IMG/VR virus record: IMGVR_UViG_3300030329_004072
Coordinates: 1-26,934 of that record
Strand: one strand, 5' to 3'
Length of the DNA: 26,934 bases
DNA from: a virus
How positions within the stretch are numbered: position 1 is the first letter of the stretch; each line of letters opens with the position of its first letter. Below, piece by piece: positions 2-17,415 of this stretch. The translations under genes were made by a program, and so were the position numbers. The notes under the pieces are model-generated. The model saw only the letters and a program-made list of their open reading frames with translations, had not been told where the DNA came from and did not search any database.

Positions 2-889
2 GAAAATCAAGCCTCTGAAATAGTCAGAGAATATAACAATGAAATTAGAAAACTTTTTATTGCAGGAGAAAATTATGTTTTTATTGACAGTGACTACGAG
101 TCTCTTGAGCCTCACGTCTTTGCTCACGTTTCAGGAGACGAACGACTTAAGGATATTTTTCGTTCCGGTCGTGATTTCTATTCTACAATCGCTATTGCTA
201 CTGAAAAGCTCAATGGAGTTTCGGCAGTTAAAAGCGATAAGAATTACCTCGGAAGAGTCAACAAACAACTTAGACAAAAGGCAAAAGCCTATAGCCTCGG
301 CATCCCCTATGGGCTTGAAGCCTACGGACTCTCAAAACAGTTAGACATACAACAGTCAGATGCTAAGATTCTAATATCAAATTACTTAGAGGCATATCCC
401 GATCTTAAGGCGTGGATGAAACGCACCGATGATATGGTCAAGAAAGTAGGTCAGGTAGCTTCAGAGGCAGGTAGGGTCAGACATATGCCTAAGGCTCCTA
501 AGATTTGGAAAGGACATCATGACTATATTCTAGATTCTTTGGCGATATGGAAAGAGTATAATGATGACCCTAAGAAGTATAACCAAATTAAATTTCTTAG
601 AAAGGAAATGGTTAACTACCTTAACAATGGTAAAAATTTTCAGATACAGAGTTTAGCAGCTTCGATTACGAACAGAGCTTGTATAGCAATTGCAAGAGAA
701 TTAAAACGTAAAGGAGTTGATGGACATGTCTGTGCTCAAATTCATGATCAGATTATTGTCAGAGTTCCAAAGTCAGAGGCTAAGCAATGGCAAAAGACTG
801 TGCAGTTCTTGATGGAGAATGTTTATAAGCTATCACTACCACTTAAGGCTCCGGCTGAAATCTCAGGAGATTTTTATGAAGGTCATTAG
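2..889 (+). CDS. Family A DNA polymerase, C-terminal half (5' truncated by window edge)
   Basis: The reading frame is open from base 2 to the TAA at 887-889, so this is the end of a longer gene. It encodes the palm and fingers of a DNA polymerase I-type replicative enzyme. Motif A is visible as DYESLEPH (partial residues 31-38). Motif B is RQKAKAYSLGIPYG (91-104), which places Leu at the position of E. coli Phe762. Motif C is IHDQIIV (247-253), with Gln replacing the usual Glu of HDE. The internal ATG at 416 is not the start, because motifs A and B lie upstream in the same frame. The Leu762 form is known from marine virus surveys; by analogy it would replicate the phage genome in the cytoplasm. 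The family call is secure. The 3'-5' exonuclease domain, if present, lies outside the window. Confidence 0.95.
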   Translation, partial: ENQASEIVREYNNEIRKLFIAGENYVFIDSDYESLEPHVFAHVSGDERLKDIFRSGRDFYSTIAIATEKLNGVSAVKSDKNYLGRVNKQLRQKAKAYSLGIPYGLEAYGLSKQLDIQQSDAKILISNYLEAYPDLKAWMKRTDDMVKKVGQVASEAGRVRHMPKAPKIWKGHHDYILDSLAIWKEYNDDPKKYNQIKFLRKEMVNYLNNGKNFQIQSLAASITNRACIAIARELKRKGVDGHVCAQIHDQIIVRVPKSEAKQWQKTVQFLMENVYKLSLPLKAPAEISGDFYEGH

Positions 890-1556
890 AAAACCATCAG
901 GTTATTGGGACATAAAAGAAAACGTACTAGAGGATGCTCTAAAACACGACACTAAAGAATCATGGTATAAATCAAAAGGTGGTGCTAGAAGTGCAGCACA
1001 AAAAAACGGGTGGTATGAAGAAGCTACGGCTCATATGAAAACACTGAGGAAGTCAAGGGGTGACTACCTAGCTATACAAATGGAAAAAATTGAAAAGGCA
1101 GGTATTCCAAAAGATAGTCCTGTTGGAAAAAGGTTTTCTGGAATTTGTTCAAGTTTTTGGTCAAAATATAACATGAGTGTAACTGCCGAGGATTTCTTAG
1201 CTTTAATAAAAATAACGAAACCAAATGGAAAAGGGGCAGTAGCTTTTGACCCTATAGGTAAAGTATGGCTTGATATTTTAGAAACAAGTGTACATGCTCA
1301 TCATTGTATAAGTGGAAAAGTTATTTTATTTTTTGCCCATAAAGATAGAAATGCTGCAATGGGACATCTAGGAGACACACCTTTTAGTTTTATTGAACTA
1401 ACTCACACTCTTGTTTCCGCAGGAGCAAAAATACCAAAAAACAAACTTGATGAAACAAAAGAACTTTTAAGGAAATTAAATGAAGCAGTTAATAAAATGG
1501 ATAGTGGACTTTGTGATATCGTTCCTAAAAGATTTTCTTTCAAAAACCAAAATTAA
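876..1556 (+). CDS. Hypothetical protein with N-terminal DNA-binding-like module
   Basis: The start is set at ATG 876 rather than an earlier in-frame ATG at 819, because AGGAGA at 864-869 sits six bases upstream of it and it overlaps the polymerase by only 14 bases. The product has 226 residues. Residues about 15-50 show a pattern of Thr, Trp, Lys, GGA, AAxKNGW and HM, for example SAAQKNGWYEEATAHM. This resembles a short module found at the N-terminus of many phage homing-endonuclease and hypothetical proteins, where it is thought to bind DNA. No HNH or GIY-YIG catalytic motif is visible in the remaining roughly 175 residues, which I do not recognise. Position directly behind the polymerase fits a DNA-related or intron-like parasite role, but that is inference. 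Confidence 0.75.
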   Translation: MKVIRKPSGYWDIKENVLEDALKHDTKESWYKSKGGARSAAQKNGWYEEATAHMKTLRKSRGDYLAIQMEKIEKAGIPKDSPVGKRFSGICSSFWSKYNMSVTAEDFLALIKITKPNGKGAVAFDPIGKVWLDILETSVHAHHCISGKVILFFAHKDRNAAMGHLGDTPFSFIELTHTLVSAGAKIPKNKLDETKELLRKLNEAVNKMDSGLCDIVPKRFSFKNQN

Positions 1557-1797
1557 AGAATTGGAGGAGGAAGTGAAAGATGCAACCCAAAAAGCAGATG
1601 AGGATGTCAAACGTGCTAATAAAGGCTATGATGATTTCATGGCTGATTATAATGCCTATCAGTCAGACCTTAAGCGCAGAGGAATGTCAACCGTGCAACG
1701 AACTTCTGGAAAACTGCGTGAAGGTGGTAAAAGATCAGAAGAAGGCGATAGAAAGCCAGAAAGTAGTGATAAAGAAACAAAAGAGCTTGATAAATGA
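1480..1797 (+). CDS. Small membrane/coiled-coil protein, candidate inner-membrane spanin (i-spanin-like)
   Basis: The product has 105 residues. The start at ATG 1480 is supported by AAGGA at 1469-1473, six bases upstream, although it lies inside the 3' end of the previous gene (77-base overlap). Residues 4-20 are hydrophobic with a few charges (IKWIVDFVISFLKDFL) and could form an N-terminal membrane anchor. Residues 22-65 are charged and likely coiled coil. The C-terminus is rich in Lys, Glu, Arg and Ser. An N-terminal anchor followed by a periplasmic coiled coil is the layout of Rz-type i-spanins. From base 1580 onward it is overlapped in another frame by the next gene, like Rz/Rz1. The role is inferred from architecture; no sequence signature proves it. 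Confidence 0.6.
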   Translation: MKQLIKWIVDFVISFLKDFLSKTKIKELEEEVKDATQKADEDVKRANKGYDDFMADYNAYQSDLKRRGMSTVQRTSGKLREGGKRSEEGDRKPESSDKETKELDK

Positions 1798-1894
1798 GCA
1801 AAAAAAGTATATAGTAAAAAAGGAAGCAGACGCATCATTTAGTAAAATACTCAATGGAATACTAGCTGTACTAGCAATATTGGTTATGTTATGA
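1580..1894 (+). CDS. Exported coiled-coil protein with C-terminal membrane segment, spanin-like partner
   Basis: The product has 104 residues, with a strong GGAGGAGG at 1563-1570, nine bases before ATG 1580. Residues about 12-33 form a signal peptide ending TLSA, followed by Glu-Glu-Cys. Residues 37-47 hold three cysteines (CQPCNELLENC). Residues about 48-85 form a Lys/Gln-rich coiled coil, and the last 15 residues are hydrophobic (ILNGILAVLAILVML). It overlaps the previous gene by 218 bases in the +1 frame and the next by ATGA (1891-1894), so it is translationally coupled on both sides. The layout resembles phage envelope-disruption proteins. It is not a canonical Rz1, because no Cys follows directly in a lipobox and there is a C-terminal membrane segment, so its topology differs from a standard outer-membrane spanin. 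Confidence 0.75.
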   Translation: MQPKKQMRMSNVLIKAMMISWLIIMPISQTLSAEECQPCNELLENCVKVVKDQKKAIESQKVVIKKQKSLINEQKKYIVKKEADASFSKILNGILAVLAILVML

Positions 1895-2409
1895 TAATAA
1901 AACTTTCAAAATATCACCTTAAAAAGTGTGAACAGTTTGCAGACGATCAACTTAAAGGCTCTGCAAAGCTTTACGCTTATAGAGGAGAGTCCTCTAAGCT
2001 AAAGATGAGAGAGGATATTGTCATAGGTAAACTAGCTGAAGTTGGAGCTTGTAAATTTTTCAAGTCTAAGAAACCAGACTTTACGATCTATGAGAGAAGT
2101 AAGAAGTCATATAGTGCAGACTTGAAGTTAGGTAATATGAGGATTCACGTTAAGAGTCAATCTAAGTTATCAGTTCAAAAGTATGGTCACTCCTGGTTAT
2201 TCCAGAGGTCAGACCAGATAGTTAGAAATGCTACACCTTTTGACTTCTTAGTATTGACTTGTGTTGACCTTGATAAACTAGAGGTTACAATACTAAAAAT
2301 AATAAGAGCTAGAGAGATTAACAAATGGGGTGAGTGTCGAGTTCCAAGATACAGACATTCAAAAGTAGCCCTATACTTAAAGGAGATACAAGATGGTTAC
2401 GATCATTAA
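1891..2409 (+). CDS. PD-(D/E)XK-type nuclease (predicted)
   Basis: The product has 172 residues, with a start coupled to the preceding stop through ATGA. Residues 46-57 read GKLAEVGACKFF, the helix with a conserved Glu that precedes the active site in many phage PD-(D/E)XK nucleases. Asp63 and Asp77 follow, and the strand MRIHVKSQ supplies the x-K element with Lys88. This Glu, Asp, (His)-x-Lys spacing fits the restriction-endonuclease-like fold. Phage members cut host DNA for nucleotide salvage or resolve branched DNA. No specificity domain is visible. Neighbouring polymerase and regulator genes support a DNA-metabolism role. The exact substrate cannot be told from the sequence. Confidence 0.65.
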   Translation: MIIKLSKYHLKKCEQFADDQLKGSAKLYAYRGESSKLKMREDIVIGKLAEVGACKFFKSKKPDFTIYERSKKSYSADLKLGNMRIHVKSQSKLSVQKYGHSWLFQRSDQIVRNATPFDFLVLTCVDLDKLEVTILKIIRAREINKWGECRVPRYRHSKVALYLKEIQDGYDH

Positions 2410-2701
2410 ACAATCAGGAAACCCAGTAGACGAAGGAGACGCTAAAAAATTCTTAGATGAATGGAAAGAAGGATTTGATAGACTCTTTGAAGCAGGTGGA
2501 GACATGGCAGATGTTACAGAAAAAGCTAAGGCATATGAAGAAGAGTTGATAAAAAAATACAAAATAGAAACAAGTGTAGAGTTACCTAAAAGTATGAAAG
2601 CTTGGAAAAAGCTTTTAGAGGAACATCATAGTGGTATAATGGTTGATGTTCATCACAAGACAGGTGAATTGATGTTTGTTATTTTAGATCAGGGGTTGTA
2701 A
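2393..2701 (+). CDS. Hypothetical acidic protein
   Basis: The product has 102 residues. ATG 2393 has AAGGAG seven bases upstream, and the gene overlaps the nuclease gene by 17 bases. It is acidic and probably helical through residue 60. A more beta-like tail contains several histidines (HHSGIMVDVHHKTGELMFV). I do not recognise the family, and no catalytic motif or membrane segment is visible. Tight coupling with the nuclease upstream and the HTH regulator downstream shows only co-expression. Confidence 0.7.
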   Translation: MVTIIKQSGNPVDEGDAKKFLDEWKEGFDRLFEAGGDMADVTEKAKAYEEELIKKYKIETSVELPKSMKAWKKLLEEHHSGIMVDVHHKTGELMFVILDQGL

Positions 2702-2752
2702 TGTTAAATTGGTTTTATTATAATATTATGAAAAAAATACAAGGAGCTAGGA

Positions 2753-2989
2753 ATGGCAATGAAAAAACTATCACCAAGGGAGTCCCAAGTTTTACTAAAG
2801 ATGAAAGATGGTCTAATGGTGAAACAAATTGCATACGACATGAATTTAAGTCCCAAGACAATAAGCACATACAAGCGAAGAATCTTAGAGAAACTGAAAA
2901 TAGAGAGTGAATGGGATTTAGCTGTTTACGTTTCTAACTTAGAGGGAATAAAACCCAGGAGGACAAAATCCAAGTGGTTGAAATATTAA
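2753..2989 (+). CDS. LuxR-type helix-turn-helix transcriptional regulator
   Basis: The product has 78 residues and consists almost entirely of a GerE/LuxR DNA-binding domain. LSPRESQVLLKMKDG (residues 6-20) is the start of the four-helix fold, VKQIAYDMNLSPKTISTYK is the scaffold and recognition helix, and RRILEKLKI follows. AAGGAG at 2741-2746 lies six bases before ATG 2753. No receiver or ligand-binding domain is attached, so it would act as a constitutive or protein-partner-controlled DNA-binding factor. It could switch early to late transcription or act on host promoters; the target is unknown. It is the last sizeable gene of the plus-strand operon. The fold assignment is strong. Confidence 0.88.
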   Translation: MAMKKLSPRESQVLLKMKDGLMVKQIAYDMNLSPKTISTYKRRILEKLKIESEWDLAVYVSNLEGIKPRRTKSKWLKY

Positions 2990-3036
2990 TATGTTTTGCA
3001 TTAGGGTATTATCTAGGGTACTTATTTTTTAGGTAA
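2974..3036 (+). CDS. 20-residue membrane peptide
   Basis: A GTG at 2974 is preceded by AGGAGGA at 2957-2963, the best Shine-Dalgarno match in this operon, with a ten-base spacer. The frame runs 20 codons to TAA at 3034-3036 and reads MVEILICFALGYYLGYLFFR, a nearly complete single membrane span with one terminal Arg. It overlaps the regulator gene by 16 bases in another frame and the convergent RusA-like gene by 15 bases. Tiny membrane peptides of this kind in phages can act as holin-like or host-modulating factors; no function can be assigned here. The ribosome binding site is the main reason to believe it. Confidence 0.5.
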   Translation: MVEILICFALGYYLGYLFFR

Positions 3037-3480
3037 CTCCTTTATGTTTAGAGTAACCCTTATTCTAAAGTCTTTACCGACTCTTTTCCTTGACCTTAAG
3101 TCTGTTATGTACTTATCGTCTATGTTAAGATTCTTAGCACCATAAGGGCTGGGTCGGTCATAGAACATAGGTAAAAATACTAAATCTATAAGGGGTTTCT
3201 CGACATTAGATAAATCATGCGCTCTGGCAGACACTCCACCATCCTTTCTATACAAAACGTGTTGAGGGTAGAAAAAGGTAAGGTCTACTTTATAGACATG
3301 CTTCTGTGGGTCAAAGTATTGACGAAGCTCTTTTAACTTTTTCTTATTCTCTTTTAAAGCTAGTGCCACTAATACGGAACATGACCATTCCTGTGCCTCT
3401 ATTGTTTTGTGCCTTTTATCACGGCAAAACATGGCATTTATAGAAAATGGCTTTAGCTTAAGAGTTATTACACGCCTCAC
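3022..3480 (-). CDS. RusA-like Holliday junction resolvase
   Basis: The product has 152 residues. The N-terminus (VITLKLKPFSINAMF) matches the first strand of RusA-family enzymes. The acidic active-site pattern follows: Asp89, Asn92, Lys95 and Asp99 in DLSNVEKPLIDL, then Asp121-Asp122 in NLNIDDKYITDL with a basic stretch RSRKR. RusA enzymes bind four-way DNA junctions as dimers and cut them symmetrically, here probably to resolve recombination or replication intermediates before packaging. The start is GTG 3480 and no clear ribosome binding site precedes it. Starting at the internal ATG would remove the first strand, so GTG is preferred. It is the last gene of the late operon, behind holin-like genes. 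Family call good, function inferred. Confidence 0.8.
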   Translation of the reverse strand: MRRVITLKLKPFSINAMFCRDKRHKTIEAQEWSCSVLVALALKENKKKLKELRQYFDPQKHVYKVDLTFFYPQHVLYRKDGGVSARAHDLSNVEKPLIDLVFLPMFYDRPSPYGAKNLNIDDKYITDLRSRKRVGKDFRIRVTLNIKELPKK

Positions 3481-3700: not shown

Positions 3701-3958
3701 CTATTGTATTTTTATTATATTAACTATAGAGACTCCCACAGCTACAAGACTGGACAAAACGCCTATAAATACCAAAATCCCCTGCGCCTTAAGAACATGA
3801 CCTTTCAGTGGTTTAACTTCTTCTTCCAACATGTCTGTTCTTTTTATGTGATACTCTAACAAAGTATTGTTTACAGCAAGATTTTTATCAATGTTGTCAA
3901 TTCTTTCGTCTATTTTGTCCAGTTTTTCTTCTATTCTGTCCATATGAGCACCAATCAT
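3701..3958 (-). CDS. XhlA-like coiled-coil protein with C-terminal membrane segment
   Basis: The product has up to 85 residues from ATG 3958; ATG 3943 (MDRIEEKLDKID) is an alternative, and neither has a strong ribosome binding site. Residues 6-50 form heptads with repeated Ile, Leu and Asp (LDKIDERIDNIDKNLA), then HIKRTDMLEEEVKPLKGHV, then a membrane segment (ILVFIGVLSSLVAVGVSIV). This layout matches small phage proteins related to haemolysin XhlA, which help holins or anchor to the membrane. A role in lysis or membrane attachment is inferred from this layout and the neighbouring membrane-active gene. Confidence 0.7.
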   Translation of the reverse strand: MIGAHMDRIEEKLDKIDERIDNIDKNLAVNNTLLEYHIKRTDMLEEEVKPLKGHVLKAQGILVFIGVLSSLVAVGVSIVNIIKIQ

Positions 3959-6266: not shown

Positions 6267-9257
6267 CTACTTAAGTTTTTCTATAGTTAGTTGTAAGTAA
6301 ACTGAATTAAGCTCAGTATTTGCTACACCAAAAGCGTTAGTAGCTGTAACCGTACTGTTGGCTTGGACTCTAAATGATGTGGTAGACGTTAAAGTAAGAA
6401 CACCACTCATTTGTGAAAAAACCTGAGTATTGTAACTATTATCACTATAACCAGTTTGTCCTATAAGATAAGTATCACCAAAGGTTGAACCTCCTACTAA
6501 CCTATTAGCACTATTTCCACAATTATATTGAGGGTTAGAGCTTACAATTTTATAAGTTCCAGGCTCAAGAGTAAAGTCTGTATTAGTTCCTCCTACTCCT
6601 AATGTTCCTGTACCTGGAGTTAAGAACCAAGTCTCTCCTTCAAAAGTATTAAGAGGTAAATTCACAAAACCAGTTGATGAACTTCCTACAGGGTTTACTG
6701 TAGTAGAACTAAAAATAGCTTTAGCAACAGCCACCGCTGGTTTTATAATATGAGCCATGTTGGTATTAGCCCTAATTCTCTGAAAGGTAAAGTTAATTAG
6801 ACCACTATAACCACTATAATGTGCTCCGCCGGAAGAACCTCCTGCGATAATCATATGTTCTCCGGCTTTTAATATAAACCCACATGCAGCGTTTTCTACC
6901 TCTCCAGTAGTACTAAACATACTACTGGTCTTTCTCATTCCACCATCAAAGTCACTGTTTCCAAATGATTTTGTTGAATCTAATATAGCTGTACCTGTTC
7001 CTGCAACAATACCAAAATCTTCTGTTGAAACTGTACTAGACCCCCATGAGAAGTTTCCAGAAACAAAAACATCAACCGATGCTGTGATTCTAAAAGCCGC
7101 AGTAGAACTTCCTTGGGTTATCGTTGCAAGTCCACTGTTAGTTAAAGTGTCTATACTAACACTAGAGACATATCTGTGGTAGTTGACTGAAGTGCTTCCA
7201 AGTTGCCCATTGTACGTTGCATAATCAGTTCCAATATTAACCAACGGCATAGACAACAATGGATTAAAATTTGCGTTCCATCCTTTAATTGGAACTGACC
7301 AAACTCTAACTGAAGCAGCCTCACTCGTTCCCATCCAACTATTACCGTTTACTGCTGTAAAATAACTTCCTCCTGACTGAGCATTAAAATAAATTCTATC
7401 TAAATTAGCGCCACCTGCTTTAACAAAAAGGTTAGCAGTGTTTCCTTTTTCATATCCATAAATACTTGTGCCTTCTCTACTCCCAACTCCTACTGCTGTT
7501 CTATCACCTGCATAAAAAATTGACTGGTCTACTTCATATCCACTCGGTAAGGTAAAATAAAGCTCGGAAGCCGCTACAGTAGCAGAGTAAAATGAACCTG
7601 CAATTTCCATAGAGTCACCAACTCTTCTCCATGCAAATTTAGTGTTTGCAGCAGTTGATGTTACTCCGTTTAGAGTTGGGGTATACTCAACCCAAGAGGT
7701 AAAAATCTCGTCCTGACTTTCCAAAACTACTGCTGAACTGTCGATTGGAGTAGCTACTATACTATGCCAACCTGAGTTATAACTACCACCTGACATATAA
7801 CCGTAAACATAATCATCTACGTCTAGAACTACATCAGCACTAGCTTCGATTGAAGTATCGTTATCTCCTCTTTGTTGTGTAATACCTACTACAACTCCTG
7901 TTGCTCCACCTCTGGATAAGTAAATACGAACTGTTTGGTTATCAGCCGAATCGTTTCCAACGGTCCAGCTTAACTTTACTTTTTTCTTAGCGCAGATTGC
8001 ACTAACAGTATCAGTTCCATTAACCTTAGTTGTAAAATCTAGGTATTTACTTTGGTCATAAGTAGGAGTATCAGGTCCAGGAAGGTTAGAAATAGTTCCA
8101 CCACTCCAGTCAATACGATAAGAAGCACCTGAAGACCATGCAGTTCCAGTTGAACTTAACCAATATCCAGCACCTTTACCACGAGTATAACTTTCAGGTT
8201 TAACAGACTGACTAACTTGTAAAAATTTATTACCAGACAATAGGACATTATCAAAAAATAATTCATGTTTTACTGTACTAGTTCCTTTTACAAAGAACCA
8301 TAAACTTATTTGTTGAGTATCTGCATCAGTTTTAAATGCTAGTTTTTTAGTAGTTCCATCTTTATTTGTATCAGAGGCAAAAGCATCTATTTGCCCTCCA
8401 GTATCATATCCTGTTAACCACCCAGTTACGAATTTACCATCTTGAACGGCTACAATATCCTTTGATAAGGTGACATTGTTATCCGTACTAGAAACCGATG
8501 TGATATAGCAATCTACAATATCGTTAGTCTGAGAACCTGCTGCTCCTGTTCCAGATTCTACAAAAACTCTATCACCTACGGCAACAGTTAAAGTTGTACC
8601 AGTAACAGGGTTTGAATAAGTTTTTCCATCTAATAAAACATTAGAACCTGCTGCAATAGGTCCTGCTGATATAGTTGAATCTTGAGTCTGTAAAATCATA
8701 GCCGATCGGTCTTGAATAGCTATGTTAAAGTACCCATTGTCCATCGTGCCTGTAGCAATTTCTGTTCTATACTTAAATTCTAAAACTAAGTTCCCACCTC
8801 TAAAGGCTCTAGGAACTGTGAGTGGAATACCCCAAAAGTCATTATCTGCACTATTAGTAGCCTGAGTAGTATAATGGAATACAAGATCATCACTATCATC
8901 TGTTAATAGAGCGTCTCCTGTACTAGAGTTAGTAAAAGCTGCTGTACCGTCAAAATCTCCAGTAGAAGATTCAAACGGAACTGCATTGTTACCACCTACA
9001 GTAGTAGAAGTTACTGATAAACTAAAGTCTATTGCAGGAATATCAGCAGCTTTAAGTAGCTGCATTGTTTCTGCATCCCCCAATTGTTTATCAATAGCAA
9101 CAAATTGAGAGTTTTTATAAACTTTCATCCCTTTTGATATTGAACCTGTTCCGGTATTAAAATAAACCTGACCGTCTACCGATGTTCCACTAGGCTCTGT
9201 AGCTGAACCTTTAAGCTTGATACTATCAGCTTCGGGGTTTTTTCCTATATAAGACAT
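6267..9257 (-). CDS. Large tail fibre / receptor-binding protein
   Basis: The product has about 996 residues. The start is ATG 9257, with GGAGAG four bases upstream; a GTG four codons earlier overlaps that site and is rejected. The N-terminus has a phage-fibre pattern (SVDGQVYFNTGTG, then KGMKVYKNSQFVAID) that probably attaches to the tail. The rest is Ser/Thr/Gly-rich beta structure. A carbohydrate-binding-like segment ends in FFDNVLLSG. A unit around VEYTPTLNGV ... FAWRRVGDSMEIAGSF ... LPSGY is common in marine phage fibres. The C-terminus ends with strands LNSVYLQLTIEKLK. No enzymatic motif is recognised. It would recognise host surface structures. It heads a string of fibre and assembly genes. 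Confidence 0.75.
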   Translation of the reverse strand: MSYIGKNPEADSIKLKGSATEPSGTSVDGQVYFNTGTGSISKGMKVYKNSQFVAIDKQLGDAETMQLLKAADIPAIDFSLSVTSTTVGGNNAVPFESSTGDFDGTAAFTNSSTGDALLTDDSDDLVFHYTTQATNSADNDFWGIPLTVPRAFRGGNLVLEFKYRTEIATGTMDNGYFNIAIQDRSAMILQTQDSTISAGPIAAGSNVLLDGKTYSNPVTGTTLTVAVGDRVFVESGTGAAGSQTNDIVDCYITSVSSTDNNVTLSKDIVAVQDGKFVTGWLTGYDTGGQIDAFASDTNKDGTTKKLAFKTDADTQQISLWFFVKGTSTVKHELFFDNVLLSGNKFLQVSQSVKPESYTRGKGAGYWLSSTGTAWSSGASYRIDWSGGTISNLPGPDTPTYDQSKYLDFTTKVNGTDTVSAICAKKKVKLSWTVGNDSADNQTVRIYLSRGGATGVVVGITQQRGDNDTSIEASADVVLDVDDYVYGYMSGGSYNSGWHSIVATPIDSSAVVLESQDEIFTSWVEYTPTLNGVTSTAANTKFAWRRVGDSMEIAGSFYSATVAASELYFTLPSGYEVDQSIFYAGDRTAVGVGSREGTSIYGYEKGNTANLFVKAGGANLDRIYFNAQSGGSYFTAVNGNSWMGTSEAASVRVWSVPIKGWNANFNPLLSMPLVNIGTDYATYNGQLGSTSVNYHRYVSSVSIDTLTNSGLATITQGSSTAAFRITASVDVFVSGNFSWGSSTVSTEDFGIVAGTGTAILDSTKSFGNSDFDGGMRKTSSMFSTTGEVENAACGFILKAGEHMIIAGGSSGGAHYSGYSGLINFTFQRIRANTNMAHIIKPAVAVAKAIFSSTTVNPVGSSSTGFVNLPLNTFEGETWFLTPGTGTLGVGGTNTDFTLEPGTYKIVSSNPQYNCGNSANRLVGGSTFGDTYLIGQTGYSDNSYNTQVFSQMSGVLTLTSTTSFRVQANSTVTATNAFGVANTELNSVYLQLTIEKLK

Positions 9258-11485: not shown

Positions 11486-13933
11486 TTAAGCTCTGTTTAA
11501 GTCTTTACGATTACTTACTTTTTCTAGTTCAGTAGCTTGAGATTCAGCTAAATCTAATTTATTTGCTGCTGCTGCTGTAATAGCTCCTCCTGCTTGAGAA
11601 GTTTGAGCTTCTTTATATAAAGCTTGAAGTCCTTTAATAGCTTGAGGAAGTAACGCCATATCAGTTGGCATACCCATTAAAACACCTAATTGTAATCTTT
11701 GAGGATACTCTACTTTATTTTCGTCTCCAGTTTTCTCTAACTGGTTGAAAACTTGTGACTGAACCTCGGAATATAATTCAGGATAGACAAATTGCATAAC
11801 TTCTACCCCTTCTGTGCTTAAGGCTCCTCTTTCTAGGTCATCTATTATAGACATAGGATTTTGCACCGCATGAAGGTATTTCTTAAATTTATAAATTTCC
11901 TGGTCTGAAGATGGAAATGTTTTCCTAAAAAAAGGATTAACATTCAACTCTTTAGACGCACTACGAGGCATTTTTCTATCTAAAAATAATAAAGCTCTAC
12001 CTGCTAGTTCTTTTGATTTAGCATAAGTCTTAGGTGCTGCTGATTGAAGGTTAGGGTCTAGCATTATTCTGTCAAAATTCTGAGGATTCTCTCTTAAGTA
12101 GTCTAAGTTAGACATAATATTTTTCAAAGCTTCTTGTTCAGTCTTAGGTTTTCCTACTACAACACCATCCTTTCTCTCTTTAGCTAAGGGACTTTTTGTA
12201 AGAATTGTAGCAGAGAGAGGAACTGCTGCCCTCTTAATTCCACTTACAAAAAACTTTTTAACGCCTCTTTGTATTTTTTTACCTACAAGTTGATTACTAC
12301 GTTCTATTCTACTAAGTACAAATAATTTGTTTTTTAAATCAGACTTAACAAAAGCAGAAGCGGCTCCGGCTATACCTGCTGCTGTAAAAGGGTCTACACC
12401 CATTCCTAAAGCAGACAACCCAAGAAAGATGTCTCTTTTGGTTGGAAAATTAGTTTGACCTTTTATTCTTTTCTTAAACCCACTTACAAATGTAGCTAAA
12501 CTGTTATAATCTAATAACTCTTGCCTTAATTTTTTTCCTAAAGGTGTGCTTAGTTTATAAGAAAAATCTTGTAAAGAATCTCTTGTAGCTTTAGCATAAG
12601 CTCTACTTATTTCGTCTTCTATAGTCAGGTCTACTTTTTTATGATAATTAGACTTTTCATGAAATTGTTTTTTTAAATTGTGTAAGTCTTTAGCAGTATA
12701 ATGAGTTTCATCTAGTAACTTATCATCTAATCCTTTGTGTTTAGTAAACCTATCTTTCATAGTAGGCTCTGGACCAGCTACATATTCTTTTTCAATTCTT
12801 CTTACTTTTTTTGCAGCGTCTACGTCAATAGGGTTACCATTTTTATCTACATACTTTTGTTTTAATTTTTCTAATTCTTTACGTTGTTTACTAGCAACGT
12901 CTTTGACTTTAGGAAAATCTCTAGGAGTTAGAACTGCATCATCTATCTCGTTTACAGTTTTACCAATCCCTTCACCTAAATCGTCTAGATAATTTTCTGA
13001 AGCTTCAAGTAGACTACGATTAGAAGCTAAAGATTTAACTGCTCCATTTTTTCTCATTACCTTACCTAAAACTTCAGGAAGGTTTTCAACCATTTGTGGG
13101 TTACGTTGTATTAACCTTTCTATGGTCTCATCTTTAAATCCGCCAAGTTTAAAAGAGTTATAAACAGGATTAGTCATTTTATCAGAAAAATCGTCTATCT
13201 TTTTTATAGATGTTCCAACTACTTTATTTCCTTTCATTTTAGGAACTACTATAGATACAGTTTTTCCTAAACCACCAAGTCCACCACCTACAAGACCACC
13301 CCATAAAGCTCCTTTTCCACCGTAAGCCATGAGATTTTCTGCATTAAACTCTGCATTACCAAGAGCGTTTTCTTCTACTAACTGACCTACACCATAAAAA
13401 GTACCCTCTACTGCTGAACCTGCTCCTTTAGCTATACTTTTTGATAAAACGTCTCTAGCAAATTTCTTTTTCCCTGTTTCTGCTAGTAATTTATTAATAC
13501 CTTTAGCAGTTAATTTTTCTACAACTTGACCAGCTTTAGCTGCGGTAGCTACACCTTTTCCTGCGGCTTGAGCACCTTTAGCTAATAAGGAACTTCCTCC
13601 TGAGAGTAATAAAGGAGCTACTATACCTGTAACTTCTCCTAGACCTGCTGCTAATTCATGCCTTTGCCTTCTTTCTCTTAATGCTTCTCCAAAACCTAAA
13701 GCTTTACCTACTTGATCAGAAAGACCAAAACTAGCAGAAGATACAGCCGATTCTGCAAAAGCTTGCCAAGGAGAGTCGCCGTACTTTTTTTCAAGACGGT
13801 CTTGGTTATCCATCCATTCTTCATCAGCTTCAGAAAATATTTCTTGTTCAGCTACTTCAGCTCCTTGAGCTTTTTTAGCCTGATACTCTTCGTCTATTTT
13901 CTGATATGCTGCTAATTCATTTTCATCTATCAT
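11486..13933 (-). CDS. Large internal-virion (ejection) protein candidate
   Basis: The product has 815 residues. ATG 13933 overlaps the upstream TGA by one base (TGATG); a TTG one codon earlier is less likely. Residues about 45-230 contain alternating Ala/Gly/Ser-rich and hydrophobic segments (AFAESAVSSASFGL, IVAPLLLSGGSSLLAKGAQA, GALWGGLVGGGLGGLG), able to insert into or cross membranes. The middle is a long Lys/Glu helical region. A second Ala/Gly segment (LGMGVDPFTAAGIAGAASAF) lies near 520-540. The C-terminus is helical. Such helix-rich proteins with internal hydrophobic stretches, next to other giant late proteins, fit podovirus ejection proteins that form a DNA channel through the host envelope. 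No enzymatic motif is seen. Confidence 0.6.
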   Translation of the reverse strand: MIDENELAAYQKIDEEYQAKKAQGAEVAEQEIFSEADEEWMDNQDRLEKKYGDSPWQAFAESAVSSASFGLSDQVGKALGFGEALRERRQRHELAAGLGEVTGIVAPLLLSGGSSLLAKGAQAAGKGVATAAKAGQVVEKLTAKGINKLLAETGKKKFARDVLSKSIAKGAGSAVEGTFYGVGQLVEENALGNAEFNAENLMAYGGKGALWGGLVGGGLGGLGKTVSIVVPKMKGNKVVGTSIKKIDDFSDKMTNPVYNSFKLGGFKDETIERLIQRNPQMVENLPEVLGKVMRKNGAVKSLASNRSLLEASENYLDDLGEGIGKTVNEIDDAVLTPRDFPKVKDVASKQRKELEKLKQKYVDKNGNPIDVDAAKKVRRIEKEYVAGPEPTMKDRFTKHKGLDDKLLDETHYTAKDLHNLKKQFHEKSNYHKKVDLTIEDEISRAYAKATRDSLQDFSYKLSTPLGKKLRQELLDYNSLATFVSGFKKRIKGQTNFPTKRDIFLGLSALGMGVDPFTAAGIAGAASAFVKSDLKNKLFVLSRIERSNQLVGKKIQRGVKKFFVSGIKRAAVPLSATILTKSPLAKERKDGVVVGKPKTEQEALKNIMSNLDYLRENPQNFDRIMLDPNLQSAAPKTYAKSKELAGRALLFLDRKMPRSASKELNVNPFFRKTFPSSDQEIYKFKKYLHAVQNPMSIIDDLERGALSTEGVEVMQFVYPELYSEVQSQVFNQLEKTGDENKVEYPQRLQLGVLMGMPTDMALLPQAIKGLQALYKEAQTSQAGGAITAAAANKLDLAESQATELEKVSNRKDLNRA

Positions 13934-16900
13934 CAAAACTGACCTTGTTCATCTTTGTCCCAAAATTTACCTTTATACCAACCTTTAGGTGGGTTTCCTG
14001 CTGCTGCTGCTGCCATGGCTTCCTTTTCTCGTTTAATTAAATAATCCATAGCTTCTCTTTTTTGACCAGGACCAGCCTTCATAAACGAAGGATGACCCAT
14101 TCTTTTAAGTCTATGCTCTACTTTTAAATCATTAGGAGTCATGCCAATTTGAACACCATTTCTTCTTAATCTTTCTCTTTCAGCATACCTTAACTTCCAT
14201 CTTATGTTTTGAAGTGCAGCTAGTTTAGGGGCATCCATTTCAAATAAAGCCCCAGGATCACCAATAATCTTTTTAGCTTGTTCTCTTTCAGTATCAGTCA
14301 TAACACCTGGACCAAAAAGTTCAAGTCTTAGTTTACCAACTAGGGCATCTCTTGTAGCATCAGCTATTCTTCTATTAACAGAAACTTTTCCTGCACCTGG
14401 GAGTCTTTTCCAAAAATCTAATTTAGGAGTCATTACAATTAATTGATCTATAGCTTGAATAGCTCCTGTGTTGTTTTCAATTTGTTCTTCTAATTTCTTT
14501 TTAGCATCAACATTATCGACTATATAAACTTTGCCGTCTCTACCTGTTAAAGCTCTATCTCTAAGTTTCATGTCTTTATACTTACGGTCAAATTTAATAA
14601 ATTCTGCTCTAGATAAAGGTCTGCCAATTTTTTGATATTCTTGAGCTTCTATTACACTTTTAGCAGCTTTTACTCTATTTGCATTTATTTTTTGATCTAA
14701 CCTTTTTTGTAACATGTCTAGTTTTTTTCTCTGAAAGTCATCTTGTGAAGCCATTTTGTATCTTTCAGTTAATTGTTGTATTTTTTTATAAGCAGCGTTT
14801 TGTTTAGCTACTTCATCTTCTCTATCAAGTTTTTGCTGACCTATATCCTCTTTTACTGCCTTGTCTATAAGATTAAGGTAAACATTAGGTCCACCATATC
14901 GTCCTGAAGCATAACCACCAAAACCTGCTGCAACAAGACTAATAATTTTATTTAAAGTTCCACCTTGATTAAAAAATCTTTTATTATCTATAGCCTCATA
15001 CTTAGATTCCATTTTTTGGTAATCTTTAATTTTCGCATCTATTTCTTCTCTTTGTCTCTGAAGGGAATCTTTTTTCTTTTCTGCATCACTAACTATTTTA
15101 ACATCAGGTTCTCTTTTAGAGACATCACCTTTAGGAACTTTAGGTGCTTTAGTTTGCTTAGTCTTTTCTATTCTAATTATGTCTTTTATTTTAGGTGGTC
15201 TTTTAAGACCTGCTTGTTTTTGAATAAGTTTTTTTCTTCTAGCTATTTCTCTTTCTATGACAGAAGGCTTAAATTTTTTCGAGTCTCTAGCCCTTATCAG
15301 ACCTTCCATATCACCTGCCATAATATAACCAGGAATACCGTCTTTTGTTCTAGTTAAAGCTGTTTCTGAAAGAAAAGGGTCTCTTCCTATTTTTTCTTGT
15401 TCAGTTTTTTCTACTTGTTCTTCCATCCAAGAATCTTGAGGAGTAGATTGTTCCTTAAAACTTTCAGCTTCTCCAGACCTAAATGCTGCCATGTCTGTGT
15501 CTTCTTCCTCAAAACTTTCAGCTTCTCCAGACCTAAATGCAGACCACTCGTCTCCAACATCTTCTTGAATTATTTCATCAGCTTTTTGTAATTCTTCTTG
15601 TCCTGCCTGAGCAGATACTTCATCTAGACCACTAACTAAATCTGATATCCCATCATCTTTTTGTTTCATCCAAGAATCTTGAGGAACAGATTGAAGGTCT
15701 TGAGGAACAGCATCAGATACTTGTTCTTTCATCCAAGAATCTTCATAGACTTCTCCACCTTCTTGAAATCTTTGAGTTTCTGGTTCTTCCTGTGGAGGAG
15801 AAACTAACGGAAGCCATTCAGAAGGAGACACTACAACTCTTTTAACTTTTCCACTTTTTTTGTCTTTTACCCAAACGTACCCTCTCATGTCTAAATGTGA
15901 AGGATAAGCATTGTCGTTTCTTTTCCCTGTTCCTCCAACTTTACCTATTACTTGTCCTACACCTAAGTCTTGTCCTACTTTAAGATTTTTGTAAGAGTCT
16001 GGAGTAGCGTGTCCATAATGAACATAAAGAGGATATTTTTCTCCACCTATAGTTATAAATTTATTAGTTCTAACTTCCATTAATCTTCCCCATCCAGTAG
16101 GGTAAGCTCCATTCTTTTTTTCATCTATCCTAGTTATAGTTCCTTCTATCATACTTGGGATTTCTTGATATTTTTTACCATTATGTAATTTAAATGTTCC
16201 ATCATCGTTTTTAGCATATCGCTTAGAACCGTCTGAGTGATTTATAGGGTTTATGTCTACCCCATGATTATACCTATCTCCTACGTGCTCAACTATTTTA
16301 CCATTTAATAAAACCCAAGATCGTTTATGTCCATGATCTGGTTGTCCACGTAAGCTAACATTTCTAGGTTTTTTTGCTAGATGGTTTTCTGTTACTTTCC
16401 ATTGTTTTCCATTTAAAAAAACATTAACATGCTCTGCTTGACCTCTAAGGTATCTTCCATCTTTAAGTCTACTTGCTCCACTTGCTATTGCACCTTGATT
16501 ATATCCTTTATCACTTTTCCATAGATTAGGAGGGTCATTCTCCCCATACGTACCTTTTTGTACTACTTTATCACCTGTCCAACCTTCATCACCCTCGTTT
16601 CTATTATGGTCGGTGTTAAACATACGTTGATGGTCTTGATCAGGGTCATCAGGGTTATAACCTTCAGGTTGTCCTTTTCCCTGTTCTAACTGTTTAAATT
16701 GTTTTATCATTCTTTTTTGTTCAGCATCCATCCATATTCTTTCTCCATCTATCATCACTTCATCGTCATCAAGAGGAGCTTGATCAGACTCAGGTTGAGG
16801 TTGTGGAGCAGGTTGGTCTTGAGTTGAAGGTTTCCAACTTCTACCTTGACTAAGATAATCTCTATAATCTCCTAGGTCGGAACTTTTTCTAGTTACTGAA

Positions 16901-17415
16901 GCCTTATTAGAAAACTTTTTTCTTAACCCTTTTAAGTAAGCTGTATCTTTTCCCTCATAAGCATCTAAGGCTTCAATAACATCAGCATAAGCATCAGCTT
17001 TTTTAGCACCTTTTGCTTTAGAAGCTAAACCCATTAATTTTCTTATTTCTTTTTGAGAAGCTACATCAGGTTCTCCTGCTTTTTCTACTTCTACTTCTTC
17101 TTTTTCAACTATGTCTCCACCTTCAGGGTCTTCATAACCTCCAGGTGATTTTAACTTAGCCATTTTCAAAGCTTCATCAGGAATTTTATCATCTATTTCT
17201 TGATATTGAGTTAGTTCTTCGTCACTAATACCATAAATGTCACCACCTTCAGGGTCCTCGTACCCTCCAGGTTCTCTAAGCTTGGAATATTCTAAAGCTT
17301 CTTCTGATACAACATCTTCTTCTACTGGAGGTTGAGCCATATAGCCTGGTCTCTCTGTATCAGCATAAGTGTAGCCAAACTTATCCTCTTCTTCCCACCA
17401 TTTATTTTTTGCCAT
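13933..17415 (-). CDS. Giant internal-virion protein with degenerate M23/LytM peptidase domain
   Basis: The product has 1160 residues, with GGGAG before ATG 17415. Residues 1-250 are acidic and low complexity with two copies of PGGYEDPEGGDI (49-60, 91-102). Residues about 380-535 look like an M23/LytM peptidoglycan endopeptidase: HGVDIN at 384-389, YVHYGHATP at 464-472, the lipoyl-like turn VGQDLGVGQVIGKVGGTG, and SHLDMRGYV at 506-514. The usual HxGxD is shifted (Asn383, His384) and the second His of HLH is Asp509, so zinc binding may be altered or lost. Residues 555-670 carry repeats of QDSWM and AFRSGEAESF. The remainder is helical, with a short Gly-rich hydrophobic segment (IISLVAAGFGGYASGRYGG). 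It may open the cell wall during DNA entry. Confidence 0.7.
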   Translation of the reverse strand: MAKNKWWEEEDKFGYTYADTERPGYMAQPPVEEDVVSEEALEYSKLREPGGYEDPEGGDIYGISDEELTQYQEIDDKIPDEALKMAKLKSPGGYEDPEGGDIVEKEEVEVEKAGEPDVASQKEIRKLMGLASKAKGAKKADAYADVIEALDAYEGKDTAYLKGLRKKFSNKASVTRKSSDLGDYRDYLSQGRSWKPSTQDQPAPQPQPESDQAPLDDDEVMIDGERIWMDAEQKRMIKQFKQLEQGKGQPEGYNPDDPDQDHQRMFNTDHNRNEGDEGWTGDKVVQKGTYGENDPPNLWKSDKGYNQGAIASGASRLKDGRYLRGQAEHVNVFLNGKQWKVTENHLAKKPRNVSLRGQPDHGHKRSWVLLNGKIVEHVGDRYNHGVDINPINHSDGSKRYAKNDDGTFKLHNGKKYQEIPSMIEGTITRIDEKKNGAYPTGWGRLMEVRTNKFITIGGEKYPLYVHYGHATPDSYKNLKVGQDLGVGQVIGKVGGTGKRNDNAYPSHLDMRGYVWVKDKKSGKVKRVVVSPSEWLPLVSPPQEEPETQRFQEGGEVYEDSWMKEQVSDAVPQDLQSVPQDSWMKQKDDGISDLVSGLDEVSAQAGQEELQKADEIIQEDVGDEWSAFRSGEAESFEEEDTDMAAFRSGEAESFKEQSTPQDSWMEEQVEKTEQEKIGRDPFLSETALTRTKDGIPGYIMAGDMEGLIRARDSKKFKPSVIEREIARRKKLIQKQAGLKRPPKIKDIIRIEKTKQTKAPKVPKGDVSKREPDVKIVSDAEKKKDSLQRQREEIDAKIKDYQKMESKYEAIDNKRFFNQGGTLNKIISLVAAGFGGYASGRYGGPNVYLNLIDKAVKEDIGQQKLDREDEVAKQNAAYKKIQQLTERYKMASQDDFQRKKLDMLQKRLDQKINANRVKAAKSVIEAQEYQKIGRPLSRAEFIKFDRKYKDMKLRDRALTGRDGKVYIVDNVDAKKKLEEQIENNTGAIQAIDQLIVMTPKLDFWKRLPGAGKVSVNRRIADATRDALVGKLRLELFGPGVMTDTEREQAKKIIGDPGALFEMDAPKLAALQNIRWKLRYAERERLRRNGVQIGMTPNDLKVEHRLKRMGHPSFMKAGPGQKREAMDYLIKREKEAMAAAAAGNPPKGWYKGKFWDKDEQGQF
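15457..15540 (-). repeat. 30-base direct repeat encoding AFRSGEAESF
   Basis: Bases 15457-15486 and 15511-15540 are identical over 30 positions, 54 bases apart and in frame. They lie in the linker region after the M23-like domain of the 1160-residue protein. Confidence 0.85.

Follow-up and report, generated by a model that had tools for sequence, protein, structure and literature searches.

Overlapping small genes under divided constraint in an uncultured phage lineage, and a tentative comparison of their products with spanins

Two-component spanins are encoded by pairs of overlapping, embedded or adjacent genes. In those of the overlapped architecture, e.g., Rz/Rz1 of lambda and LysB/LysC of phage P2, the second of the two small genes is in the +1 frame, and the proteins have a helical coiled coil and a periplasmic cysteine. 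The i-spanin is a type II protein with an N-terminal transmembrane domain (TMD) and a periplasmic domain, and the o-spanin is an outer-membrane lipoprotein with a lipobox and an acylated cysteine. Unimolecular spanins (u-spanins) like gp11 of T1 combine a lipobox with a C-terminal TMD. The periplasmic cysteine is nearly always present in two-component spanins, usually near the interaction end, and it was found in none of the 58 surveyed u-spanins (PMC6139136). About 13% of the surveyed Gram-negative phage genomes were without a recognisable spanin, and an i-spanin of type I topology in the inner membrane was considered possible, an arrangement outside the survey criteria (Kongari et al., 2018; PMC6139136). 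Here a gene pair is described that shares the overlapping +1 arrangement, the coiled coil and the periplasmic cysteine with two-component spanins. In contrast to them, the second protein (P2) is not a lipoprotein and has a terminal membrane helix, while the first (P1) lacks an N-terminal TMD and is probably cytoplasmic according to prediction.

The window, i.e., the whole stretch of viral DNA that was analysed, has a length of 26,934 nucleotides. The gene for P1 (105 aa) is located at 1480–1797 and the gene for P2 (104 aa) at 1580–1894, both on the plus strand. They share 218 nt, which are read in different frames, and the first codon position of P2 lies on the second codon position of P1 (+1 frame). 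P1 is preceded by the Shine-Dalgarno sequence AAGGA (1469–1473, plus strand), 6 nt upstream of its ATG at 1480, which is poor or ambiguous in several relatives. The Shine-Dalgarno sequence of P2, GGAGGAGG (1563–1570, plus strand), lies within P1, 9 nt upstream of the ATG at 1580. These coordinates, the overlap and both ribosome binding sites had been reported in a preliminary description of the DNA, and all of them were found again in the sequence.

The same description had placed the pair with replication genes, and it is indeed part of the polA gene string. The polA gene ends at 889 and is followed by a variable cargo ORF (879–1556, plus strand), which is situated between polA and P1, extends 77 nt into P1 and is outside the conserved pair. 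Downstream, the ATG of a gene for a PD-(D/E)xK-like protein (assigned by motif; 172 aa, 1891–2409, plus strand) shares the sequence ATGA with the P2 stop codon; this gene directly follows the pair in the window clade and is found farther downstream in two of the deep relatives, G006 and G008. In three cargo-free relatives one base is shared by the polA stop and the P1 start. Because of these overlaps from polA via P1 and P2 to the next gene, P1 and P2 are probably translated from the transcript of polA. A promoter scan yielded no more matches than expected by chance. The late genes are oriented in the opposite direction and end, within about 2.5 kb, with RusA-like, phrog_402 and XhlA-like genes. 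The XhlA-like protein (3701–3958, minus strand) is a holin by weak similarity, and in the window clade as well as in G006 its gene is conserved at a distance of up to about 2 kb.

Several further features of the surroundings were observed. The junction of polA and P1 (889–1480 in the window) is a cargo slot, which is empty in L008, L017 and L018 (1-nt overlap) as well as in L006/L020 (17-nt overlap). Filled slots contain single-ORF inserts of 476–641 bp from unrelated families (endonuclease VII, DUF5843, 2OG-Fe(II) oxygenase), and the insert of the window is an unassigned ORF. A small gene with a LuxR/GerE-type helix-turn-helix (2753–2989, plus strand; PF00196, 8e-19) closes the replication string before the convergent late genes. 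A 1160-aa protein of the virion cluster (13933–17415, minus strand) has no PHROG match and, as judged by eye, appears to contain an M23-type peptidase stretch. The terminase of G001 is remotely related to that of HTVC010P-type pelagiphages (26–27% identity).

Relatives were collected by scans of the IMG/VR collection, which were later widened via neighbouring genes. The complete pair was present in 16 contigs of one uncultured phage lineage with four deep branches, and P2 was always in the +1 frame relative to P1. Thirteen of the contigs belong to the window clade (the window, L001, L002, L004, L005, L006, L007, L008, L009, L014, L017, L018, and L019), and the remaining three are the deep relatives G006 (L037, 52,740 bp), L053, and G008 (L054, 49,334 bp). 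L018 and L019 encode an identical pair, and some other window-clade contigs are near-identical. In other contigs parts of the pair are cut off at the contig ends. Relatives with only one open frame, which had been named beforehand as evidence against the pair, were looked for, and no contig with one frame open and the other lost was present among those found in IMG/VR. The distance between the two starts is exactly 100 nt in ten distinct window-clade pairs, and it is 121, 109, and 118 nt in G006, L053, and G008, respectively, each of which is 1 modulo 3 and thus conforms to the +1 frame. The respective overlaps comprise 92, 293, and 95 nt, and in G006 P1 has 70 aa and P2 101 aa. The proteins of the deep branches were recognised in profile comparisons, with E-values, on the scale of pairwise alignments and not of database searches, of 3e-9 (G006), 3.7e-10 (L053), and 3.3e-8 (G008) for P2, and of 1.1e-11, 1.6e-7, and 9e-5 (the weakest match) for P1. 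Seven controls, all of them helical or membrane proteins and lambda Rz among them, yielded values of 0.02 or worse, and neither P1 matched the P2 profile nor P2 the P1 profile. G009 (L067, 55,003 bp) has related neighbour genes, but another membrane protein is found at the site of the pair. Near this site, a repeat run on the reverse strand of L067 (about 2698–3077) is open in three frames (GSGYGSGDGYG / ATAPAPATA / RLRLRRRLRL).

Outside of this lineage the searches remained negative. Direct searches among isolated phages revealed no credible relative, and a scan of bacterial and archaeal genomes revealed none either. In PHROGs and Pfam there was no significant match, only weak hits of the coiled-coil type, a sequence search of the PDB gave nothing meaningful, and the P2 of G006 used as query matched only itself. 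The spanin families yielded no significant match, and P1 and P2 show no sequence similarity to two-component spanins. A recurrent hit to phrog_739 ("Rz-like spanin") was rejected, as its E-values were 0.006–0.017 and the matching protein was P1 in one genome but P2 in other genomes. P1 and P2 are two new protein families, and the pair is a variant of the overlapping arrangement of small envelope genes.

For P2, the preliminary description had listed a signal peptide, three cysteines and a coiled coil, together with a C-terminal membrane segment, and the sequence features support this outline. The signal peptide (residues 1–33, 1580–1678) has a basic n-region and a hydrophobic core and ends with a signal peptidase I-like site after A33 (LSA|E); the aligned sites of the relatives are LSA, LNA, and TYA. 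A lipobox is present neither in P2 nor in P1. C36, C39, and C46 were all found again, but the number of three is lineage-specific, and C46 (1715–1717) is the sole invariant cysteine in the alignments. In most branches, including L053 and G008, C39 forms a CX6C motif with C46. A basic heptad coiled coil (Q-K-x-x-I-x-x; residues 52–81, 1733–1822) is seen in the sequence and is a helix in the model. The C-terminal membrane helix (residues 88–104, 1841–1891) runs up to the stop codon and has an estimated insertion energy of -1.0, and the values ranged from -2.5 to +0.4 in four relatives. Most simply, P2 would be a type I inner-membrane protein with the N-terminus outside and the C-terminus inside. 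The basic residues in front of the last helix and the lack of a tail behind it are unusual and fit poorly to the positive-inside rule.

P1 likewise begins with a helix, as had been described, yet this helix is amphipathic and not transmembrane. The helix (residues 2–19, 1483–1536; KQLIKWIVDFVISFLKDF) has its charged residues confined to one face, its hydrophobic moment is 0.60 compared to 0.14 for lambda Rz, and its estimated insertion energy is +4.3 kcal/mol compared to -3.2 for lambda Rz. All insertion energies, including that of lambda Rz, were calculated with a simplified home-made biological hydrophobicity scale and are indicative only. In one branch (G008) the value of +1.1 is borderline for insertion. 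No export signal or signal peptide was seen in the P1 sequence. An amphipathic helix without a signal peptide is best read as that of a cytoplasmic, membrane-surface protein, so that P1 is probably a peripheral protein of the inner membrane, attached from the cytoplasmic side, and the label "envelope protein" is doubtful for it. The idea that P1 is a membrane-spanning, i-spanin-like partner is not supported: it has neither a TMD nor an export signal, and its tail is unconstrained and absent from two branches. AlphaFold2 predicted single low-confidence helices, with a mean pLDDT of 67 and 60 for the two proteins. Overall, the topology of the pair is moderately supported.

Measured against the known classes, the pair agrees with spanins in its overlapping genes, which are in the +1 frame in all relatives, and in the periplasmic cysteine for a homotypic disulfide, represented by C46 of P2, with the disulfide itself being a prediction. 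The comparison with spanins in the preliminary description is therefore reasonable, but P1 does not have the architecture of an i-spanin, P2 has the opposite, type I orientation, and neither of them is an o-spanin. P2 resembles T1 gp11 in that it would be exported and has a C-terminal membrane helix; unlike u-spanins of this type it has no lipobox, is helical instead of beta-rich, and contains one or more periplasmic cysteines. As anticipated in the preliminary description, the layout thus differs from that of Rz/Rz1, as P2 has no lipobox and ends in a membrane helix. With its inverted polarity P2 fits the hypothetical type I i-spanin, which was only proposed by Kongari et al. (2018; PMC6139136) and for which P2 is a candidate.

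It is therefore tempting to speculate that P1 and P2 are a non-canonical, envelope-disrupting pair associated with lysis, and this reading, the most probable of those considered, is put forward tentatively. The two proteins would form a co-inherited membrane module that is made together with the DNA polymerase gene string of the phage. P2 would be exported and cut by signal peptidase I, with its C-terminus remaining as the anchor in the inner membrane. Its cysteine, which lies where the coiled coil is farthest from the membrane, may join it into disulfide-linked dimers. P1 would be attached to this membrane at the cytoplasmic leaflet. P2 could then act like an i-spanin of inverted (type I) topology, and P1 might act on or regulate the membrane from the inside. 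As a cytoplasmic protein P1 cannot be the outer-membrane partner. A separate partner is conceivable, because genes for an SLT transglycosylase and lipoproteins were found in three long relatives (G006, G008, and G009). However, these genes are away from the pair, the lipoproteins are unlinked to it and also occur in G009, which lacks the pair, and the pair itself is part of the polA string, outside any recognisable lysis cassette. No ORF with a canonical lipobox was found in any frame of the window, and no SLT gene in five window-clade records including the window. In G006 a TMD gene (46819–47025) and a lipoprotein gene (47027) after the SLT gene resemble a spanin cassette; this candidate was rejected, because in G009 a lipoprotein gene likewise follows the SLT gene but this TMD gene is absent, and the lipoproteins of G006 and G009 share an IDPCGD region. 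The lipoproteins at 9027–9575 of L044 (G006) and at 8598–9128 of G009, downstream of the SLT gene, have IDPCGD...DEV in common after a variable coiled-coil part. G008 encodes a collagen-like (GXY) lipoprotein (282–1214), with the SLT gene at the opposite contig end, so that the two would be neighbours only in a circular genome.

Two models that assign one task to each face of the inner membrane fit the anatomy of the pair better than the spanin-like reading, with less direct support. In the first, P2 on the periplasmic and P1 on the cytoplasmic face would bar competing phages, i.e., confer superinfection exclusion or early protection of the envelope. Both proteins are placed at the inner membrane, and the position in the polA string together with the probable translational coupling points to expression in the early or middle phase. 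However, neither protein is homologous to a known exclusion protein, and the pair is kept in all examined branches but one, which is above the expectation for a typical, fast-changing exclusion gene. The probability of this explanation is low, though not far below that of the spanin-like reading.

In the second model the pair would be a two-faced holin regulator like RI and RIII of T4, possibly directed at the XhlA-like protein. To our knowledge, the genes for RI and RIII are separate and do not overlap, and RI has no C-terminal TMD, unlike P2. The likeness, drawn from descriptions of the two proteins, consists in one periplasmic-side protein with a cleavable signal peptide (RI) and one cytoplasmic protein (RIII), one on each face of the inner membrane (PMC8385771). 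The conservation of the XhlA-like gene near the pair in the window clade and G006 agrees with the model, but its product is assigned as a holin by weak similarity only, and lysis control of this kind has a low probability. Lower still is that of a replication tether, in which P1 would link the machinery of the polA region to the membrane, with P2 as its anchor: the neighbouring polA, nuclease, and resolvase genes as well as the amphipathic helix and the long helix of P1 are compatible with it, but P2 has no cytoplasmic residues to contact P1, and its conserved part is periplasmic.

The reality of both genes was examined as well. When the amino acids of P2 were fixed and its synonymous codons redrawn, the P1 frame was open in 0 of 20,000 trials. 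With the roles of the two proteins exchanged, the P2 frame remained open in 1.1% (codon usage of the genome) to 2.8% (permutation of the own codons) of the trials, so that the open overlap is more than chance. Selection was analysed in ten pairs with a hand-written, OLGenie-like count (dNN, dSN, dNS) and a codon-block bootstrap, the intervals of which are approximate because the sequences are related. For the whole overlap dN/dS was 0.37 (0.22–0.59) for P2 and 0.68 (0.44–1.12) for P1. The overlap was then split at the end of the signal peptide, a point that was chosen after the domain layout was known but was not fitted. In the first half dN/dS was 0.47 (0.28–0.85) for P1 and 1.03 (0.58–2.33) for P2, and in the second half it was 1.15 (0.60–3.57) for P1 and 0.16 (0.07–0.31) for the mature part of P2. 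The signal peptide is variable in sequence and evolves freely. The charged P1 tail (residues 67–105, 1678–1794) is predicted to be disordered, as the pLDDT stays below 50 from residue 71 onwards. This tail is absent from G006 and G008 and looks like a passive by-product of the overlap. Outside the overlap the P2-only part had a dN/dS of 0.13 (0.06–0.23), and the P1-only part had a bootstrap range of 0.03–0.10, with an undefined point estimate because synonymous sites were saturated. That only one frame is real and the other spurious is highly improbable, despite the unconstrained P1 tail and a dN/dS near 1 in the P2 signal peptide, since the parts of P1 upstream and of P2 downstream of the overlap are under strong purifying selection, all relatives keep both frames, and each protein is recognisable in deep branches. 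P1 residues 1–66, its conserved core, and mature P2 are functional and under purifying selection, although in different halves of the overlap and not in both frames throughout. P1 and P2 are both genuine genes that are co-inherited in at least four distant branches.

The existence of the pair, its conservation and the divided constraint are thus well supported, while its function is a guess. It is doubtful, but would be of consequence, that P2 is the first natural inverted spanin-like protein for envelope disruption (type I, C-terminally anchored, not a lipoprotein), obligately paired by overlap with a cytoplasmic membrane-binding protein. If true, outer-membrane disruption or lysis control would be possible outside all surveyed spanin topologies. 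The survey of Kongari et al. omitted type I membrane proteins, and the pair offers a specific candidate that is conserved and whose domain boundaries are clear. Irrespective of its function, it is a clean natural case of DNA sharing by divided constraint, in which the P1 core is encoded opposite the P2 signal peptide and the mature P2 domain opposite a dispensable P1 tail.
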